From positions 1-46,603 of the forward strand of contig PLYL01000016.1 in the NCBI GenBank assembly GCA_003151795.1: DNA of 46,603 nt, read 5' to 3'. The stretch is from Candidatus Yanofskyibacteriota bacterium. Lineage in GTDB: Bacteria; Patescibacteriota; Minisyncoccia; 2-02-FULL-40-12; GWA2-44-9. Both the position numbers and the translations under genes were made by a program. The notes beneath the pieces are model-generated. The model did no database searches, was not told the DNA's origin, and saw only the letters and a list, made by a program, of their open reading frames with translations. Below, one piece after another: positions 9,527 to 46,603 of this stretch. Within the stretch, counting starts at the first letter, position 1; every line of letters starts with the position of its first letter.

Positions 9527-9790
9527 TTATAAACCTAATTTTTTGGTCAAGCTGGCGTGCCGTTTTGGATTGTCGCGTTTCAAGAAATCCATCAATCGTT
9601 TGCGCTTGGCCACCATTTTCAAGAGACCCAGGCGGGAGCTATTGTCTTTGCCGTGCTTTTTTAAATGCTTGGCAAGCATTTCGATTTCTTTGGTAAACAA
9701 AGCCACCTGGGCTTCAGCCGAGCCGGTGTCTTTGTCATGAATCCGGACTTGTTCTAAAACTTTCGATTTTTGCTGGGTAGTTAAGGCCAT
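9527..9790 (-). CDS. rpsO: 30S ribosomal protein S15
   Basis: The 87-aa protein is close to the usual 88-89 residues. Diagnostic segments are DTGSAEAQVALFTKEI and HGKDNSSRLGLLKMVAKRKRLMDFL, followed by the basic C-terminus. S15 binds the central domain of 16S rRNA early in 30S assembly. The rpsO-pnp order is conserved widely, but here two other genes lie between them. The 9355-9526 spacer downstream holds no gene I can support. Confidence 0.97.
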   Translation of the reverse strand: MALTTQQKSKVLEQVRIHDKDTGSAEAQVALFTKEIEMLAKHLKKHGKDNSSRLGLLKMVAKRKRLMDFLKRDNPKRHASLTKKLGL

Positions 9791-9893
9791 GGGAATAGGG
9801 GTATGTATTAAGTATTATGGAAAATAAAACTAAATGTATTCTATCACGGATTTTGATTGCTTACAATAGCTTATATTTTGCGACGTAAAGATG

Positions 9894-9899
9894 TATAAT
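9894..9899 (+). promoter_or_regulatory. -10 box upstream of the Xer recombinase
   Basis: TATAAT lies about 9 bp upstream of the ATG at 9908. A weak -35 (TTATAT) is 17 bp further upstream. The transcript would be nearly leaderless. Confidence 0.4.
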
Positions 9900-9907
9900 G
9901 ACCGTAT

Positions 9908-10852
9908 ATGGCTGATTTGAAAACTCTTAAAATACAATATCTGGAATACTTAGAGATCGAGAAGAATCGGTCGCCTAAGACACTGGAAAACTATGGACGA
10001 TATTTGGATAGGTTTTTGAACTTTGCCAAAGTGAAAAACGCGGAAGACTTGGATGATGAGCGCATCCGCCAATATCGTCTGCATTTGAATCGCCTGAATA
10101 GAGGAGATGGCCCCTCCTTCGCCAAGGCTTCGGCGGGCGAGCGACCCTTGATGAAAGTTACCCAGAATTACCATGTCATTGCATTGCGGAATTTTTTAAA
10201 GTATCTCGCCAAGCGGGGAGTGCAAAGCGTCTCGGCAGAAAAGATTGAATTGGGCCGAGCCGAGGACCGGCATGTGACTTTTCTTGAACATAGCGAGTTA
10301 GACAGATTATTAAATGCGCCGGAAGGGGACAAGTTGGACGCTCTGCGGGACCGAGCGATGTTGCGGATGCTTTTCTCCACGGGTATGCGCGTCTCCGAAC
10401 TCTGCTCAATGGACCGTAACAAGATTGACGTAAAGCGAGGCGAGCTGTCAGTGCTCGGTAAAGGTCGGAAGATTCGCTTGGTCTTTCTGTCCGAGGACGC
10501 TAAAGATTACATCGCTCAATACCTCGCCAAAAGAACCGACGTCGATGAGGCTTTGTTCATCCGCATTCCCAAATCTGGCAAGTTTGGCAAAGATTCAGAC
10601 CTGCGTCTCACGCCCCGCTCGGTTCAGCGCATCGTCCAAAAATATGCCATCAAAGCCGGCATCATGGGCAAACACGTTTCGCCCCACACTTTGCGTCACA
10701 GCTATGCCACTGATTTATTAAGAAATGGCGCCGACATCCGCTCCGTCCAAGCCATGCTCGGCCATTCTTCGGTTACGACTACCCAAATCTACACCCACGT
10801 CACCGACACCCAGTTGCGGGAGATTCATAAAAAATTTCACGATAAAAAATAA
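9908..10852 (+). CDS. Tyrosine recombinase XerC/XerD-like
   Basis: The 314-aa protein has an N-terminal SAM-like core-binding domain (residues 1-100) and a C-terminal catalytic domain. The catalytic set is visible: Arg in STGMRVSELCSM, Lys in VLGKGRKIRLV, HTLRHSYAT (H-x-x-R), GHSSVTTTQIYTHV (His and the nucleophilic Tyr). It probably resolves chromosome dimers as the single Xer of this cell, although a mobile-element recombinase is not excluded. A palindromic insertion near residues 68-80 adds PSFAKASAGERP in the core-binding domain, in frame. Whether it is XerC, XerD or a single XerH/XerA-type enzyme cannot be told here. Confidence 0.92.
   Translation: MADLKTLKIQYLEYLEIEKNRSPKTLENYGRYLDRFLNFAKVKNAEDLDDERIRQYRLHLNRLNRGDGPSFAKASAGERPLMKVTQNYHVIALRNFLKYLAKRGVQSVSAEKIELGRAEDRHVTFLEHSELDRLLNAPEGDKLDALRDRAMLRMLFSTGMRVSELCSMDRNKIDVKRGELSVLGKGRKIRLVFLSEDAKDYIAQYLAKRTDVDEALFIRIPKSGKFGKDSDLRLTPRSVQRIVQKYAIKAGIMGKHVSPHTLRHSYATDLLRNGADIRSVQAMLGHSSVTTTQIYTHVTDTQLREIHKKFHDKK
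10108..10146. repeat. SFAKASAGE-type palindromic insertion in xer
   Basis: The sequence around CCTTCGCCAAGGCTTCGGCG is an imperfect palindrome encoding PSFAKASAGERP in the recombinase. It is one of several in-frame palindromic insertions in this window. Confidence 0.6.
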
Positions 10853-37931: not shown

Positions 37932-38516
37932 ATGAAATTCCAAATTACAAAATCCAAATTACAAAAAGGACTTGCCCGCCTGAATTTTTGGAACAAAAAA
38001 TCTGGCGGGTTTACGATCGTCGAAGTTCTCGTGTCGGCGCTTGTTTTCTCAATAATCGCCATCGTGGTCAGCGGGCTGTTCGTCCAAATCCTGGACCTAG
38101 AGCAACGGTCATTCGCGTCCCAAAAGATTCAAGAAAACGGTCTCTTTATCATGGAACTCATGTCCCGCGAGATTCGAGTGAGCCAAATAGTAGACACTGA
38201 TCAAACACCGCAGGGGGATTCAATAAATTGTACTCTGACTTCGCTGACGATTCGCCACCCCGTTAATGGCACTATCACGTATACCCTCGCTAATGGCGTG
38301 CTCCAGCGAATCGCCGACGGAATCACAACGGATTTGAGCTCATCCGGCGTAGCATTTTCCCGTTTGAATTTTTGTCTTATGGGTTCCGGCCCGACCGACC
38401 ACCAGCAGGCCCGAGTGGCGATTCTGGCGTCAATCCAGAATAAAACCGGCAAAGAAATTTTAACCACCAGCTTAGAGACAACGGTCTCATCCCGCGATGT
38501 TCAAACCGAATTTTAA
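37932..38516 (+). CDS. Minor pilin-like protein (GspJ/PilW type)
   Basis: The 194-aa protein has a longer basic leader (MKFQITKSKLQKGLARLNFW) before the cleavage site GG/FTIVEVLVSALVFSIIAIVV with Glu5. The globular region (IQENGLFIMELMSREIRVSQ) matches PilW/GspJ. It overlaps the following gene by about 20 bp. Function is inferred from order and family. Confidence 0.85.
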   Translation: MKFQITKSKLQKGLARLNFWNKKSGGFTIVEVLVSALVFSIIAIVVSGLFVQILDLEQRSFASQKIQENGLFIMELMSREIRVSQIVDTDQTPQGDSINCTLTSLTIRHPVNGTITYTLANGVLQRIADGITTDLSSSGVAFSRLNFCLMGSGPTDHQQARVAILASIQNKTGKEILTTSLETTVSSRDVQTEF

Positions 38517-38928
38517 AAATAATCAGCGAGGTTCCGCCCCTCACATGAAGAACCGTGGCCACTTAGTGGCCTGGTCTGCATGCGGCTCTTCATGTGAGGG
38601 GTCCGTAATTATATTTACGCTTTTGATATTGGGGAGTATGCTGGCCATAACCTTGGCCCTGGCAGGTATTTACTTGCCCAAACTGCGGGCGGTCGGGGAT
38701 GCCGGCGCCGGTTCCGTCGGCGCCATCTACGCCGCCGATAGCGCTTTGGAGTGGTGCATTTATACCAATCGCGCGAATCCGGCGCTCCCCCCGCCGGTTA
38801 TGGCTAATGGCGCGACCTATAAAATCTTGCCTGCCAATGCCGCCGATTGCACGGCCTTGCCCCTCAATAACCAAGTCGTCGGCACCTATCGCAATGTCAG
38901 CCGTTCCCTGCAGGTAACCACGCCTTGA
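38497..38928 (+). CDS. PilX-like minor pilin protein with in-frame hairpin insertion
   Basis: The 143-aa protein has an N-terminal leader ending NQRGS, an inserted segment of about 23 residues (APHMKNRGHLVAWSACGSSC), then a membrane helix VIIFTLLILGSMLAITLALA and a small outer domain with AADSALEWCIYTN, typical of PilX-type proteins. Without the insertion the leader and helix would join as in relatives (QRGS-VIIFTLLI). The insertion is exactly the hairpin element at 38537-38601. The insertion sits at the prepilin processing site, so cleavage may be impaired. Confidence 0.8.
   Translation: MFKPNFKNNQRGSAPHMKNRGHLVAWSACGSSCEGSVIIFTLLILGSMLAITLALAGIYLPKLRAVGDAGAGSVGAIYAADSALEWCIYTNRANPALPPPVMANGATYKILPANAADCTALPLNNQVVGTYRNVSRSLQVTTP
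38537..38601. repeat. Hairpin element, CCCCTCAC family, copy 1 (inside pilX-like gene)
   Basis: CCCCTCACATGAAGA (38537-38551) pairs perfectly with TCTTCATGTGAGGGG (38587-38601). The loop contains a further GGCCAC/GTGGCC hairpin. It is translated in frame. Confidence 0.85.
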
Positions 38929-38957
38929 AATAAGGAACAATGAACAAGGACCACTGA

Positions 38958-41009
<2,052 letters not shown>

Positions 41010-41017
41010 CACTCTTC

Positions 41018-41051
41018 GACTTATAATTTAGCGTACGCCAAATTATAAGTC
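41018..41051. terminator. Bidirectional hairpin between ligA and the reverse transcriptase gene
   Basis: GACTTATAATTT pairs perfectly with AAATTATAAGTC (12 bp). It lies between converging genes, and the RT stop codon is in one arm. Confidence 0.6.
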
Positions 41052-42032
41052 ATCCATGATTTTATTTTGTAGCTTCTTTGTATTGCCATGACTCAATAAG
41101 CCAAGATATGATTGCTTCACGGCCCCGTTTCCTTGTTTGGCTTTTAAATTCCTTATCATTCGTCTTTTTGTCGTCGTTCTCAAGACTCGATGATTAGGAA
41201 AATGAACCCAGCCCAGAAAATCAACGCCGGAAAATATGGTCCTAACAGAAACCTTGTCAGGATGTAGCTCCAGTTTCAAGCGTTCAGAAAGGAAAGTTTT
41301 AATCTCGGATAAAATTTCTCCAAGCCGAGCTTTGTCTTTCTCTAAAATGACAAAATCATCAGCATATCTAATATAGTATCTCGCTTTTAGGCGATGTTTC
41401 ACAAATTGATCGAACTCATTTAAATATATATTCACCAGAAGTTGAGAGGTTAGGTTTCCTAGAGGCAGACCGATTCCTTCACGAACAGAGAAACTTTGAA
41501 GTATCAGTCTGAACAAATGAATTATATTTTGATCCTCAATATATTTCTCGAGAATAGACAAAAGAATCCCGTGATCAATGGAAGCAAAGAATTTTCGAAT
41601 ATCGCATTTCAAAACCCAGACCGTTTCTTTCCGGTTATTTGATAGCTGCCACACAAATCTTTTAAGTTTCCTAATCGCTTTGTGTGTCGCTTTGTCATAA
41701 CGGCACGAATATGAATCGGGTATAAATGTCCGATCAAAAAACGGATAGAGTTGCCGATATATGGCGCGATGGAGCAATCTGTCTCGAACGCTTGCCTTAT
41801 GGATATTCCTCGGCTTCGGGTCGGAGATATTAAATGCCTCATATCCTCGATGCCGATATGTCCGAGCGACAAGATCATTATGAAGAGAAATAATATTGCT
41901 CATCAAATTCCTCTCAAACTCCTGCACGTCTTTTCGTTGATGCTTCCCAACTATAAATTCTCTCCATGCGCCAAGGAGATTTTCTAAAGATATGATACTA
42001 TCGTAGGTATGAGTGAATCTAATTCGAGCCAT
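41043..42032 (-). CDS. DGR reverse transcriptase
   Basis: The 329-aa protein is a retroelement RT with the DGR-type signature GLPLGNLTSQLLVNIYLNEF (the [LIV]GNxxSQ motif) and the catalytic YADD box in RYYIRYADDFVIL. Other RT motifs are VLKCDIRKFFASIDHGILL and GVDFLGWVHFP. There is no maturase or endonuclease domain, which fits a DGR RT and not a group II intron. It would copy the TR RNA with errors at adenines. TR lies 0.4 kb upstream on the same strand, then the target gene. Its start overlaps the 5' end of the divergent avd gene. Confidence 0.95.
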   Translation of the reverse strand: MARIRFTHTYDSIISLENLLGAWREFIVGKHQRKDVQEFERNLMSNIISLHNDLVARTYRHRGYEAFNISDPKPRNIHKASVRDRLLHRAIYRQLYPFFDRTFIPDSYSCRYDKATHKAIRKLKRFVWQLSNNRKETVWVLKCDIRKFFASIDHGILLSILEKYIEDQNIIHLFRLILQSFSVREGIGLPLGNLTSQLLVNIYLNEFDQFVKHRLKARYYIRYADDFVILEKDKARLGEILSEIKTFLSERLKLELHPDKVSVRTIFSGVDFLGWVHFPNHRVLRTTTKRRMIRNLKAKQGNGAVKQSYLGLLSHGNTKKLQNKIMDDL

Positions 42033-42421
42033 AATCCTTTAAGCCCCCCCCCAGGCTTCTGCCACTTCTGCAGAAAGTTAAGAGTGTTTATCTCATCTGG
42101 TTTCAATATTACCAAACTCTCCCGCGAGGACATAAATACACGCTCGGCCAGCAGATAGATATTCTGTGGATAGAAATTATAAAATCAATTTCAAGTGCGG
42201 CGTTTTTGCCCCGAACAGAAAAGCTTCCTTTCATACGGCTTGCGATACAACGAGTAGATACCTTAAAAATACTTTTGATGGTTCTGTGGGAAGCAAAATC
42301 GCTTCAAGACAAAAGATATGGACTTCTCTCGATGGAAATTGAAACTATCGGCAAAATGCTCGGCGGCTGGTATGGACAAGTCACAAAACAAAACTCCCTC
42401 GGAGTGCCGAAGGAGAAATGA
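42009..42421 (+). CDS. avd: DGR accessory protein Avd, start disrupted at a C9 tract
   Basis: The plus-strand frame from 42059 to the TGA at 42421 encodes a full four-helix Avd-type protein: LLPLLQKVKSVYLIWFQYY, LPRGHKYTLGQQIDILWIEI, FLPRTEKLPFIRLAIQRVDT and the signature SMEIETIGKMLGGWYGQ. Avd forms a basic pentamer that binds the RT and template RNA and is needed for mutagenic cDNA synthesis. The track reports only the last 71 codons from a TTG. The nearest ATG (42009, MSESNSSHNPLS) is joined to this frame through nine Cs at 42044-42052; ten would restore it. A slip, phase switch, CTG start or sequence error are all possible. It is antisense to the RT-TR strand. Confidence 0.85.
42044..42052. 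repeat. C9 homopolymer at the avd 5' end
   Basis: Nine consecutive Cs separate the only upstream ATG from the Avd frame by one base. Confidence 0.85.
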
Positions 42422-42430
42422 AGATAGTTT

Positions 42431-42555
42431 CGAGCAGAGCCGCGGGATTGTTGTCGTTCCAATCGTTGTCGAGCCAGTTGTAGTTCCGGTGCCACGCACC
42501 GTCGTTGAAGTACAGGTAGCGGACGTACAGGTTGTCGGTCTTCGGATTGCGGTTG
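42431..42555 (-). repeat. DGR template repeat (TR)
   Basis: The 125-nt segment aligns without gaps to 42915-43039. On the minus strand it reads through ten AAC or AAT codons (for example AAC TAC AAC TGG CTC GAC AAC). Twelve positions differ from VR: 11 of its 33 adenines and one of its 92 other bases. It is not part of any protein gene. Its 3' end shares the 17-nt GC-rich run TCCCGCGGCTCTGCTCG with VR, a candidate initiation-of-mutagenic-homology site. The avd stop codon ends 9 bp beyond it. Confidence 0.95.
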
Positions 42556-42795
42556 CGTAGAGCGCGCCATCCAAGTCTTCACCGCCCATTGAAGGCCCGT
42601 GCCGATCTCTGGGCTGTATTTCATGCCGTATCTAAAATACGTTAGCACGCTCTACCAAGTATCTTTATTTTTTAAAGTTTCTGCATACGTCACGCTATCT
42701 CGGTCCGACAAGGACAGAAATATTCTGAACGCATGGATACTGGCTTCGGCATCTGGAGACTTTCGTCCCCAGCATATTCGCCTAACGCCGTTTTT

Positions 42796-42801
42796 ATTAT
42801 A
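42796..42801 (-). promoter_or_regulatory. Possible -10 box for TR/RT transcription
   Basis: TATAAT on the minus strand lies between the target terminator and TR, about 240 bp upstream of TR. The -35 region (TATTTC, 17 bp away) is poor. This is a weak candidate. Confidence 0.35.
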
Positions 42802-42824
42802 CAAAATTTTTTAAAATAGAAATA

Positions 42825-42864
42825 GCCCTGATAGGATTCGCTTGGGGGCAAATCCTATCAGGGC
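42825..42864 (-). terminator. Strong hairpin downstream of the DGR target
   Basis: GCCCTGATAGGATT pairs perfectly with AATCCTATCAGGGC (14 bp, 12-nt loop), followed on the minus strand by TATTTCTATTTT. It lies 42 bp past the target stop and could be a terminator, the post-VR hairpin known from some DGRs, or both. Apart from this and the -10 box, the 42556-42906 gap shows no gene. Confidence 0.8.
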
Positions 42865-42906
42865 AGAGGTTCAGAGGGCCAGGACTTAGCGCCCTAGAAC
42901 CCAGCG

Positions 42907-43578
42907 CTAACTTGCGAGCAGAGCCGCGGGAGAGTTGTCGTCCCAATCGATGTCGAGCCAGTAGTAGAACCGGTGCCACGCACCGTCGTTGAAGTACAGG
43001 CAGCGGACGTATAGGCTGTCGGTCTCCGGATTGCGGTAGATCGTCCCCCAGAAGAAGATGTAGCGAACGTTGCCCTTGTCGTCGCGCTTCCAGTCCTCCG
43101 GGATGAGATGCTGGTTCTCGTAAAGGGCATCGAGAATGTTCGCGTTGAGCACCACCTTCTTGGTGACCTCGTCACGCAACTCGTAGCCCTTGATTGTCTT
43201 GCCATTCAGCTGGCGCTGGGACAGGTAGAGCTCAACTTTGCGCCCACCGACGTACAAGCCGTCGGCACGCTTCTCGACCCCGAACCAGCCGTGGCCCTCG
43301 TGTCTCTCGACCCGCGCGCCATCGAACGGTAGCTTGGGCGAGAAGTCGAGGTTGACCGAGATGGTCGTATCGTTGATCTTGCGCCAGAGGGGCTCGGGGA
43401 CGGGCGGGACGATTGTGGCCTCCGTGATCAGCTTTGCCACCAGCTCGTCGACGAGACGATTCTTGGTGTCTTCTGACAGGCCTAGGACGGCTTCCTCGTT
43501 GCCTTTGATGCCGGTCGTCAGGCGCGTCGTTATTGTCGTGACGAGCCCGAACGCCGAACCAATTTGTGATTTCGCCAT
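42907..43578 (-). CDS. DGR target protein with C-terminal variable C-type-lectin-like domain
   Basis: The 223-aa protein ends in a DGR-type variable region. The N-terminal 70 residues are helical (GLSEDTKNRLVDELVAKLIT) with no signal peptide, so it is probably cytoplasmic. The middle and C-terminal part (HLIPEDWKRDDKGNVRYIFF, then RNPETDSLYVRCLYFNDGAW) resembles the CLec-fold targets common in DGRs. VR covers the last 42 codons except the final two. Nine codons differ from TR: N to Y, K to E, N to S, Y to C, N to F, N to Y, N to I, N to D and N to S. A strong promoter and a GGGAG ribosome-binding site precede it. Its ligand is unknown. Confidence 0.92.
   Translation of the reverse strand: MAKSQIGSAFGLVTTITTRLTTGIKGNEEAVLGLSEDTKNRLVDELVAKLITEATIVPPVPEPLWRKINDTTISVNLDFSPKLPFDGARVERHEGHGWFGVEKRADGLYVGGRKVELYLSQRQLNGKTIKGYELRDEVTKKVVLNANILDALYENQHLIPEDWKRDDKGNVRYIFFWGTIYRNPETDSLYVRCLYFNDGAWHRFYYWLDIDWDDNSPAALLAS
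42915..43039 (-). repeat. DGR variable repeat (VR)
   Basis: This is the 3' end of the target gene, ending 6 nt before the stop. It is the diversified copy of TR (42431-42555) with no indels. Substitutions are at TR adenines except one silent G to A (CTG to CTA). Confidence 0.95.
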
Positions 43579-43677
43579 TGTCGTTGCTCCCTAGCATTGG
43601 CTGCCCCTCATCCCGCGGAATTGCGAGACCCCAGGCTTACCAATTACCGAATACTCAAAGTGCTATCTTACGTTTCA

Positions 43678-43706
43678 ATTATACTCCCATTTTGGTTAAA
43701 AGTCAA
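43678..43706 (-). promoter_or_regulatory. Promoter of the DGR target gene
   Basis: On the minus strand TTGACT and TATAAT are exactly 17 bp apart, giving a leader of roughly 90 nt before the ATG at 43578. Confidence 0.8.
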
Positions 43707-43743
43707 TAGTGGCAAAGGAGCTGATTTATGATAATTTTTAAGG

Positions 43744-44049
43744 ATGTTATCTGATACCGAAGTCGAATATATCGCCAAGCTCGCGAGGATTACCATCAAT
43801 GACGCCGAGAAGGAAAAGCTGAAAAAAGATTTGTCGGCGATTTTGGATTACATCGAAAAACTCAACAAAGCCGATACGTCTTCGGTGGAACCGCTCTATC
43901 AAACCACGGGATTAGTAAATGCCACCCGTATAGATGAGCCGCGCGGAGAGTTCCCGATGAACGATAAGTTGGAGGGATTGCTTATCGGCCAAGCCCCGGC
44001 CCGCAAAGAGCGATTCGTGAAAGTTAAATCAATACTGAACAAGAAGTAA
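43744..44049 (+). CDS. gatC: Glutamyl/aspartyl-tRNA amidotransferase subunit C
   Basis: The 101-aa protein is of normal GatC length, with the start motif DTEVEYIAKLARITINDAEK and the conserved RIDEPRGEFPMNDKLEG. GatC wraps around GatA and stabilises the GatCAB amidotransferase that converts Glu-tRNAGln to Gln-tRNAGln. It is followed 22 bp later by gatA; gatB is not in this window. Confidence 0.95.
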   Translation: MLSDTEVEYIAKLARITINDAEKEKLKKDLSAILDYIEKLNKADTSSVEPLYQTTGLVNATRIDEPRGEFPMNDKLEGLLIGQAPARKERFVKVKSILNKK

Positions 44050-44071
44050 GAATTACGAGTTAAGAATTAAG

Positions 44072-45511
44072 ATGCTAGAAAAAAACCATACAATCAAATC
44101 GGCCAGAGAAGCCCTGAAGAGGAGAGATTTTTCCGTTGAGGAATTGTTTAACCATTATCACCAAAGAATCGTCGAGAAGAATAAAGACCTTAACGCTTAT
44201 CTGACTGTTTTTGAAAATTGTCTCCCTACGGGAGATCTCCCAAAGGGAGAGAAATTGAAAACTGAAAATTCGAAATCACCGCTCTGGGGGATTCCGGTGG
44301 CAATCAAGGACAATATGCTTATCGAAGGGACACGCACTACGGCCGGCTCCAAAATACTGGAAAATTACATCTCCGCCTACGACGCCACGGTGATTAAAAA
44401 ACTCCGCTCGGCGGGAGCGGTATTTCTCGGCAAGACCAACCTCGACGAATTCGCCATGGGCAGTTCCACCGAAAACTCGGCCTATGGCCCGACTAAAAAT
44501 CCATTGGATACTTCGCGCATCCCCGGCGGTTCGTCGGGCGGTTCCGCGGCGGCCGTGGCTGGAGATTTGGCTGTTTTTGCTCTTGGTTCGGATACTGGCG
44601 GTTCGATTCGCCAACCAGCTTCCATGTGCGGAATTGTGGGTCTTAAGCCGACTTATGGGCGCGTCTCTCGGCATGGGCTCATCGCAATGGCTTCTTCATT
44701 TGATCAAATCGGGCCACTCACGAAAACCGTTGAAGATTCGGCGATTGTTTTGAATGTGCTCTGCGGCCATGACATCTTTGATTCCACAACCGTTAATAAC
44801 GCAGTGCCAGATTTTACCGCCGCGCTCAATGATTCCATCAAAGGTTTAACTATCGGCGTGCCTAAAGAATTTTTCGGTACAGGTTTATCGCCAGAAGTTG
44901 AAGAACGTATCAAAACCACTATCACAAAACTCAAAGACCTTGGCTGTAAAATCAAAGAAATATCTCTTCCAAATTTTGAATACGCTCTGGCCGCATACTA
45001 TGTCGCCGTGCCCAGCGAAATTTCCGCCAACCTCGCCCGCTTCGACGGTGTCCGCTACGGCTATTCGGCCAAAGACGGAGAGAATCTCATCGATACCTAT
45101 TTCAAATCCCGCACTGAAGGACTTGGAGCCGAACCCAAGCGCCGAATCATGCTCGGCGCCTACGCTTTGTCATCCGGCTACTACGACGCCTATTATTTAA
45201 AAGCTCAAAAAGTCCGCGCCTTGATTAAAAAAGATTTTGATGAGGCATTCAAAGACGTAGACGTCATCGTCGGCCCGACGGCGCCCAACACCGCCTTCAA
45301 GATAGGGGAGAAAGCGTCCGACCCGCTGGCGTTATACTTGGAAGACGTCTACACTGTGCCGGTTAATCTGGCTGGTTTGCCCGCTATTTCAATTCCGTGC
45401 GGATTGGGAACAGAAAGCAAGATGCCCGTCGGGTTTCAAATCATTGCTAAGCCGTTCGACGAAGCCACCTTGCTCCGCGTCGCGCACCAGCTCGAACAAG
45501 CGCTAAAATAG
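44072..45511 (+). CDS. gatA: Glutamyl/aspartyl-tRNA amidotransferase subunit A
   Basis: The 479-aa protein is an amidase-signature enzyme. The catalytic Lys is in GIPVAIKDNM, and the Ser-cis-Ser-Lys set is completed by GGSSGGSAAAVAGDLAVFAL and GSDTGGSIRQPASMCGIVGL. It releases ammonia from glutamine for GatB. A palindromic element (44220-44251) is translated as CLPTGDLPKGE in the variable loop between the N-terminal helices and the first catalytic strand. Length is otherwise normal. Confidence 0.96.
   Translation: MLEKNHTIKSAREALKRRDFSVEELFNHYHQRIVEKNKDLNAYLTVFENCLPTGDLPKGEKLKTENSKSPLWGIPVAIKDNMLIEGTRTTAGSKILENYISAYDATVIKKLRSAGAVFLGKTNLDEFAMGSSTENSAYGPTKNPLDTSRIPGGSSGGSAAAVAGDLAVFALGSDTGGSIRQPASMCGIVGLKPTYGRVSRHGLIAMASSFDQIGPLTKTVEDSAIVLNVLCGHDIFDSTTVNNAVPDFTAALNDSIKGLTIGVPKEFFGTGLSPEVEERIKTTITKLKDLGCKIKEISLPNFEYALAAYYVAVPSEISANLARFDGVRYGYSAKDGENLIDTYFKSRTEGLGAEPKRRIMLGAYALSSGYYDAYYLKAQKVRALIKKDFDEAFKDVDVIVGPTAPNTAFKIGEKASDPLALYLEDVYTVPVNLAGLPAISIPCGLGTESKMPVGFQIIAKPFDEATLLRVAHQLEQALK
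44220..44251. repeat. Palindromic element inside gatA
   Basis: The sequence starts GTCTCCCTACGGGAGATCTC and ends AAAGGGAGAG. It is an imperfect copy of the infB palindrome and is read in the same frame (LPTGDLPKG against LPSGDLPKG). Confidence 0.82.
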
Positions 45512-45512
45512 T

Positions 45513-46091
45513 ATGCACCAAATATATAATCAATTTATCATCGCGTTCTACCAATGGACTTCGTTCCAAGTCGGCAGTTTTAATTTGGCCGATATGGGCG
45601 CCAATTTTCAAAGTGCCTTCTTAGACTCTTCCTTTGCCTACACTCTTCAAATTATTTCCGCGCTGATAACGATTGTCTTGGGCGCCGCGGCCGCCTACTT
45701 GGTAATCAAGCGAAAAGAGTTTGATAAAATACTGGCCGGACAAGAAGCGGTGCCAGTGGAAATTGCCGGAGTCGGCCCGATTCAAGAACAATGGAACGAC
45801 ATCATGCGCCACATTGATTCCGTCCATGAAGGCGAGTGGAAATTCGCGGTGATTGAAGCCGATACGATTGTTGATGGCGTCTTAAAAAATTACTTCGTCG
45901 GCGATACAATGGGGGAGCGTCTGTTAAATATCGACAAAACCAAGCTTCTCGCCATTGATGACCTCTGGGAGGCCCACAAAATCCGCAATCGTTTGGCCCA
46001 TGACCCGAACTATTTCCTCCGCCACGCCGAAGCCCTCCGCGCCGTCAAACTTTTTAAATCCGTCCTCAAAGAACTCGGGGCGATAGCATAA
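45513..46091 (+). CDS. Hypothetical membrane protein, 192 aa
   Basis: The protein has an amphipathic N-terminus, one clear transmembrane helix (TLQIISALITIVLGAAAAYL) and a helical cytoplasmic domain of about 120 residues (IQEQWNDIMRHIDSVHEGEW, then IRNRLAHDPNYFLRHAEALR). The RNRLAHDP segment resembles the RxxxxH-type phrase of HEPN-like helical domains, but I would not assign a function from it. It follows gatA by 1 bp and ends at a strong hairpin, so it is probably the last gene of the gat transcript. Confidence 0.68.
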   Translation: MHQIYNQFIIAFYQWTSFQVGSFNLADMGANFQSAFLDSSFAYTLQIISALITIVLGAAAAYLVIKRKEFDKILAGQEAVPVEIAGVGPIQEQWNDIMRHIDSVHEGEWKFAVIEADTIVDGVLKNYFVGDTMGERLLNIDKTKLLAIDDLWEAHKIRNRLAHDPNYFLRHAEALRAVKLFKSVLKELGAIA

Positions 46092-46092
46092 T

Positions 46093-46137
46093 AAAACGCC
46101 AGCTGTTGTACCGGGTAGGGCAACATGCTGGCGTTTT
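46093..46137. terminator. Terminator hairpin after the gat operon
   Basis: AAAACGCCAGC pairs with GCTGGCGTTTT, with an inner TGTTG/CAACA. It is placed between converging genes and may work in both directions. Confidence 0.8.
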
Positions 46138-46186
46138 CCGGAATAAATTCCGGGGAAGGCGTGCGACGTGTACGCATGCGTGACTC

Positions 46187-46432
46187 CTATGGTTTGTTGT
46201 CGGTTTGTTCCGCTTCGGGGAAGGCATCGAGGAGCTCGACTTCCCATTCTAGGAGTTGATTGGCATACATCCCATACTCAAGAGCGAATTCTCTCATGCT
46301 CTTGATGAGTTCAGACGCCCCGCGCACAGCTTGAGCATCTACGGGACTCATCCTGAGCAATCGATTCTTGCCCTCTCGGAACCTGACCATGTCCGAGACC
46401 GGATTTACCGACCCCTTGGCTGTTGCACGCAT
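46187..46432 (-). CDS. Hypothetical 81-aa protein
   Basis: I recognise no family. The start MRATAKGS at 46432 has a good ribosome-binding site (AAGGAGTGG) a few bases upstream, which supports it as a real gene. The protein is mostly helical (AQAVRGASELIKSMREFALE) with an acidic C-terminus (EVELLDAFPEAEQTDNKP). No membrane segment is visible. It converges on the gat terminator. Confidence 0.55.
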   Translation of the reverse strand: MRATAKGSVNPVSDMVRFREGKNRLLRMSPVDAQAVRGASELIKSMREFALEYGMYANQLLEWEVELLDAFPEAEQTDNKP

Positions 46433-46503
46433 ACCGCTACCACTCCTTTCGTTTGGATACGAGGAACTGACTGGATTTTATCGAGAGTTTAACATTTCGT
46501 CAA

Positions 46504-46563
46504 CCCCTCACTTGAAAACTAACGTCAGTAAATACCGAGGATAATTAGTTTTAAAGTGAGGGG
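46504..46563. repeat. Hairpin element, CCCCTCAC family, copy 2
   Basis: CCCCTCACTTGAAAACTA (46504-46521) pairs with TAGTTTTAAAGTGAGGGG (46546-46563) with one mismatch. The outer eight bases are shared with the element inside the pilX-like gene. It lies upstream of the 81-aa gene. Confidence 0.8.
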
Positions 46564-46603
46564 TGAAAAGGAGCCTTTGTGGTGTCATTATATCATTTGC
46601 TCG

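Follow-up and report, generated by a model that had tools for sequence, protein, structure and literature searches.

A Patescibacteria diversity-generating retroelement whose mutagenic activity is probably under a phase-variable slipped-strand switch

The window, by which we mean the whole 46,603-nucleotide stretch analysed here, carries a reverse transcriptase (RT) gene downstream of a template repeat (TR) on the minus strand, a target gene ending in a variable repeat (VR) and, between RT and TR on the opposite strand, a reading frame for the accessory protein Avd (Table 1). The RT matched RVT_1 with an E value of 5e-25, and its best match in the PDB was the bRT of the Bordetella phage BPP-1 (8ub7_A, E 1.5e-46), with a group II intron RT at 1.6e-23. 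The avd frame matched the bAvd family PF22296 at E 6.6e-9 and 36.7 bits, slightly below the curated cut-off of 40, and the same family was matched by all 46 members of our avd alignment. Avd is modelled as a bundle of four helices (pLDDT 92.8), which can be superposed on BPP-1 Avd (4dwl) with TM scores of 0.80/0.89 and an rmsd of 1.4. No relatives of the target protein were found by sequence searches of Pfam, NCBIfam, PHROG or the PDB; relatives do occur in other CPR DGR loci, one of them (L029) 46% identical. Its model has a pLDDT of 87, and a fold search, in which the C-type-lectin fold was tested, returned no confident PDB match; the best fold match over the VR half, the C-terminal domain of Bd2740, had a Z score of 4.5, which is weak, and was not trusted. 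No known RNA family was found at the locus in Rfam at E<=1, and a 7-bp inverted repeat following the VR (TTAGCGC/GCGCTAA, 42886-42910) is absent from the predicted minimum-energy fold.

Table 1. Features of the retroelement, with positions numbered from the first letter of the window.
Feature	Position	Strand	Remarks
DGR reverse transcriptase (RT)	41043..42032	-	329 aa; motifs LPLGNLTSQ and YADD; own ATG after the tract
Proposed avd start ATG	42009..42011	+	Complement of the RT His8 codon CAT
C9/G9 homopolymer, proposed phase switch	42044..42052	.	avd in frame with ATG 42009 only if tract length is 1 mod 3 (e.g. 10)
avd reading frame	42053..42421	+	122 aa after the tract; antisense to and head-to-head with RT; PF22296, model
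TR (template repeat)	42431..42555	-	11/33 A vs 1/92 non-A differ from VR
Terminator-like hairpin after target gene	42825..42864	-	17-bp stem; DNA fold z -4.9
DGR target gene	42907..43578	-	223 aa; VR C-terminal (residues ~180-222); ORF list, alignment
VR (variable repeat), 3' end of target ORF	42915..43039	-	Repeat search and exact alignment
GC-rich stretch TCCCGCGGCTCTGCTCG, IMH-like	42915..42931	-	VR 3' end; identical in TR 42431-42447; alignment

TR and VR form the sole direct repeat of at least 30 nt in positions 38000-46603 (126 nt, 90% identity, spacing 484), and neither a third TR copy nor a remote VR was found in the organism's own genome. A preliminary description, based on alignment by hand, had placed nearly all TR/VR differences at template adenines, and its counts hold in an exact ungapped alignment of the minus strand: there are 12 differences, 11 of them at the adenines of the TR (composition A33 C43 G29 T20) and one G>A, and no indels (Fisher p = 1e-6 for the adenine bias). 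The adenines are replaced by T (six), G (four) or C (one), giving nine changed codons (N>Y, K>E, N>S, Y>C, N>F, N>Y, N>I, N>D and N>S), and the alignment bears out both the two AAY codons altered at both adenines (N>F and the last N>S) and the silent exception, CTG>CTA. This silent G/A difference, for which drift of the TR had been suggested, may reflect drift in TR or in VR alike. The ends of the repeat are soft, the first differing adenine (42554) lying one base outside the 126-nt core and a further A>C occurring at 42430, just past the TR end. By analogy with BPP-1, the GC-rich stretch TCCCGCGGCTCTGCTCG shared by the two repeats is best described as IMH-like.

An adenine-biased repeat pair, an RT of the DGR type, a VR at the C-terminus of its ORF and a bAvd gene on the opposite strand together identify the locus as a genuine diversity-generating retroelement (DGR) in a Patescibacteria/CPR genome. 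The same features, together with TR/VR pairs of the same adenine-biased kind at 64 other loci, mean that the mutagenic retrohoming proposed earlier is well supported. The fraction of changed adenines, 33%, corresponds to about one round at the misincorporation rate of BPP-1 bRT, ~31% per adenine (PMC12875486), and gives no date.

The avd frame is interrupted at its 5' end. In the window, avd's own frame has a stop just upstream of the C tract, and no ATG, GTG or TTG lies between the tract and the Avd core, the frame after the tract beginning with two CTG codons. The upstream ATG at 42009 is out of frame with avd at the assembled tract length, from which it leads to a 49-aa dead end; with C10 it would be in frame and give a 137-aa Avd. 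Read in the sense of the RT, the G tract lies in the TR-RT spacer, just before the RT ribosome-binding site. Since nine C's leave avd out of frame, the assembled consensus probably represents an OFF element. A homopolymer assembled from metagenome data may, however, be one nucleotide too long or too short, which makes the ON/OFF call of any single locus, the window included, uncertain. With an element that would have been ON in the past, for about one round, and is probably OFF in the consensus now, the earlier qualification of the retrohoming as 'recent' is not supported.

The 766-kb genome of the organism has only three C/G runs of at least 9, which belong to its two DGRs and to one Gly-rich repeat gene (L186 1501-1511, contig C20), in which Gly codons give such runs by composition. 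The second DGR (L012 8406-10766, contig C7; TR 9782-9901, VR 10169-10288) is laid out like the window's, and its RT belongs to a distant lineage that clusters with phage DGRs. Its C10 tract needs two more C or one fewer for frame, and its RT also has no start after the tract; in the assembled sequence neither avd nor RT is in frame with its upstream ATG. A third, different RT, a 439-aa RT-like ORF without a nearby TR/VR, was seen at L013 5536-6855 (contig C12).

To place the tract in context, 80 CPR and 80 viral relatives were fetched by RT and avd was located with a self-built profile; in almost every CPR-type locus it lies antisense to RT, the two genes being head-to-head. A simple repeat lies between the avd core and an upstream ATG in 78 of the 82 CPR-type loci with avd, and comprises a mononucleotide in 71 (poly-C of 7-14), a dinucleotide in four and a tetranucleotide in three, the tetranucleotide clade using three different units (CCAA, CGAA and GCCA); triplet or hexanucleotide repeats were found at none of the 78 junctions. 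We rejected general CPR composition as the source of the poly-C, because such runs are rare in the window's own genome and confined to the junction, which holds all 66 of the G/C runs of at least 8 in 80 genome loci (493.5 kb), the remaining ~480 kb containing none. In L073, L074 and L071 the assembly has N-gaps at or beside the junction.

Among the 78 junction-repeat loci avd is in frame in 24 and out of frame in 54, and in all 54 OFF loci it is free of internal stops; in close OFF/OFF pairs its pN/pS is 0.11-0.20. Such intact, constrained genes are expected if OFF is temporary. Moreover, 44 OFF loci have adenine-biased TR/VR pairs, and must therefore have been ON before. In 77/77 loci at least one frame gives access to an upstream ATG, compared with 60% at random RT antisense points (p 4e-18, a nominal value that, like others in this comparison, is too strong because the loci are related). 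Within 75 nt, one length class puts avd in frame with an ATG in 65 of the 78 loci, two in 11 and none in two, and the 65 single-state loci divide into 17 ON, 24 one unit short and 24 two units short, indistinguishable from thirds (p 0.47). Loci of the window's genus likewise differ in the units needed for frame, +1 or +2. Where the RT has no start after the tract, one common length frames both genes in 20/20 testable loci. Sequence features of a phase-variable SSR locus are found here, namely a non-triplet repeat in the 5' coding part, a gene framed in one of three length classes, and a gene that stays intact in out-of-frame loci.

The codon on the other strand of the proposed start also bears on this point. 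The RT His8 codon is CAT in 51/52 loci (47/48 by a second count), compared with 573 CAT : 370 CAC at the other RT His codons, and the RT sequence therefore seems to be shaped by an avd start on its other strand; over the whole RT N-terminus the codon signal is weak (Mann–Whitney p 0.048).

Loci without a junction repeat behave differently. In a phylum-wide sample, an RT of this type was present at E<=1e-40 in 98/379 genomes and yielded 29 loci, of which 20 carry a junction repeat and one an internal repeat; avd was in frame in 9/9 without a junction repeat vs 4/20 with one (p 7e-5, for related loci). Eight CPR DGR loci without any simple repeat and with avd in frame (L194-L198, L208, L210 and L218) are perhaps locked ON or otherwise controlled. 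The phylum-wide search also brought up RTs broken between motifs 3 and 4, and at this position, inside the RT coding region, 16 distinct CPR loci (L219-L224, L230, L232, L234, L236-L239, L243, L245 and L249) carry a dinucleotide repeat of 5 to 19 units, GA in 15 and CT in one. Each has exactly one in-frame state, four being ON and 12 OFF in a set picked partly for breaks. Internal and junction repeats never occur together (0/16), and avd is in frame in 14/15 of the internal-repeat loci where it was found. In a tree built by a quick method, with many forks open, the tetranucleotides form one clade, two changes are required to explain the dinucleotides, and the L017/L019 lineage clusters with phage DGRs that lack a repeat, a pattern suggesting that the repeats may have arisen more than once. 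One viral-contig RT (L103 3001-3951) is nested among Kaiserbacteria DGRs and has no repeat, as if the switch had been lost on moving into phage; another viral contig has a G13 run (L161 30-42) ~1.6 kb before a distant DGR RT.

From these sequences we conclude that in most of the surveyed CPR DGRs an essential subunit carries an apparent phase-variable slippage switch. The window very probably holds a complete CPR DGR in which a switch of this kind controls mutagenic activity. In the mechanism we propose, RT and Avd would copy the TR RNA, misreading adenines, and the cDNA would replace the VR at the 3' end of the target gene; the adenine-specific differences, taken with known biology, show this copying and replacement step. 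Avd would be translated from the ATG inside the RT gene, antisense to His8, through the C tract, which, to judge from the sequences, would slip during replication and change length in living cells. An out-of-frame avd would give no Avd and hence no homing: nonsense mutations in avd drop BPP-1 DGR activity to background (PMC12875486), from which we infer that Avd is essential for homing in CPR as well. A lineage would thus diversify while ON, and a slip would then freeze a successful VR. Since one length class in three would give full-length Avd, most cells of an OFF lineage would keep a fixed VR, while rare revertants would resume diversification. In some relatives the tract would also set the RT frame, and in others the RT-internal dinucleotide repeat would have the same role. 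On the scale of the phylum, we consider it likely that slippage switches control DGR hypermutation and have evolved at no fewer than two sites, the avd/RT junction and the RT interior, with some lineages switching both overlapping genes by one tract; a mutator would here be gated by a second mutator, in alternating phases of diversification and fixation.

Other roles for the tract were considered. If Avd were made from a non-ATG start after the tract, the DGR would be always on and the tract incidental, and indeed a GTG or TTG that might serve as a start follows the repeat in 29/54 OFF loci, while the window itself offers its two CTG codons. However, no ATG follows the repeat at any of the 78 loci, the remaining 25 OFF loci, the window included, lack ATG, GTG and TTG alike, and loci without a repeat keep an in-frame ATG; an always-on element also leaves unexplained why a non-triplet repeat has been kept, re-invented with other units and moved into the RT elsewhere, and we regard this explanation as unlikely. 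Homopolymer runs can slip in transcription, and either transcriptional slippage or a programmed ribosomal frameshift on the tract could supply a constant low level of Avd with no switching of the DNA. A programmed shift would, however, fix one phase, and it was on the uniformity of the phases described above that we rejected it; nor are di- and tetranucleotide arrays of 20-40 nt typical slippery sites, which makes constant slippage of either kind very unlikely.

The G tract might instead act in the TR RNA or the RT leader, through RNA structure or RT translation, and not on the avd frame. Its position is suggestive, as it directly precedes the RT ribosome-binding site and falls within the TR-RT spacer, where the RT-binding RNA of BPP-1 is located (PMC12875486). 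Against this, the tract is replaced at other loci by the unrelated units GGTT, TTCG, TGGC, GA and CT, or gives way to a repeat inside the RT coding region, and the sole property common to all of these is a non-triplet unit in a reading frame. An RNA or leader role is accordingly most improbable, and the phase-variable switch remains the reading that we prefer.

In its RT, Avd fold, adenine-specific TR-to-VR change and 3'-end VR, the element resembles the DGR of BPP-1 (bRT, Avd, TR, VR/mtd). In BPP-1, however, avd is co-oriented with RT and upstream of TR, whereas here it is antisense and head-to-head with RT, the TR-RT spacer is itself antisense avd, and the avd frame is broken by a simple repeat with a non-triplet unit. 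The phage-borne relatives L105, L107 and L109-L117 share the gene order, the avd/RT start overlap and the head-to-head arrangement, but lack the repeat, and each of them has an ATG in frame with avd. With SSR contingency loci of Campylobacter, Neisseria and Haemophilus the CPR loci share mono-, di- or tetranucleotide tracts in the 5' coding part and about one-third of phases ON; they differ in that the switched product is part of a targeted mutator and that, at some loci, one tract frames two opposite-strand genes. In its CPR host and cellular target the element is like Patescibacteria DGR clade 2 of Roux et al. 2021 (PMC8144416), in whose text a term search found no mention of a repeat, a switch or an antisense avd. 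Nor was an earlier report of such a switch found in the open-access literature searched.

A DGR that never stopped would destroy the variants it finds. Roux et al. 2021 (PMC8144416) found slower VR turnover in cellular DGR clades and left open whether RT activity is more strongly controlled there, by what means good variants are kept, and why cellular targets change more slowly than phage targets. The switch offers an answer: if confirmed, a frame switch on Avd or RT that is inherited and can be reversed would be a simple way for cellular DGRs to keep good variants, and a general case of one hypermutable system controlling another. Tract length, which is readable from any metagenome, would then predict which lineages are mutating. 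It is also implied that standard gene calling would miss the out-of-frame avd, and part of RT, in many CPR genomes. As a further observation on the overlap of the two genes, RT Ile13 (window 41994-41996) is encoded by ATC in 48/71 loci, above general usage, and this codon is possibly a promoter element for the antisense avd.
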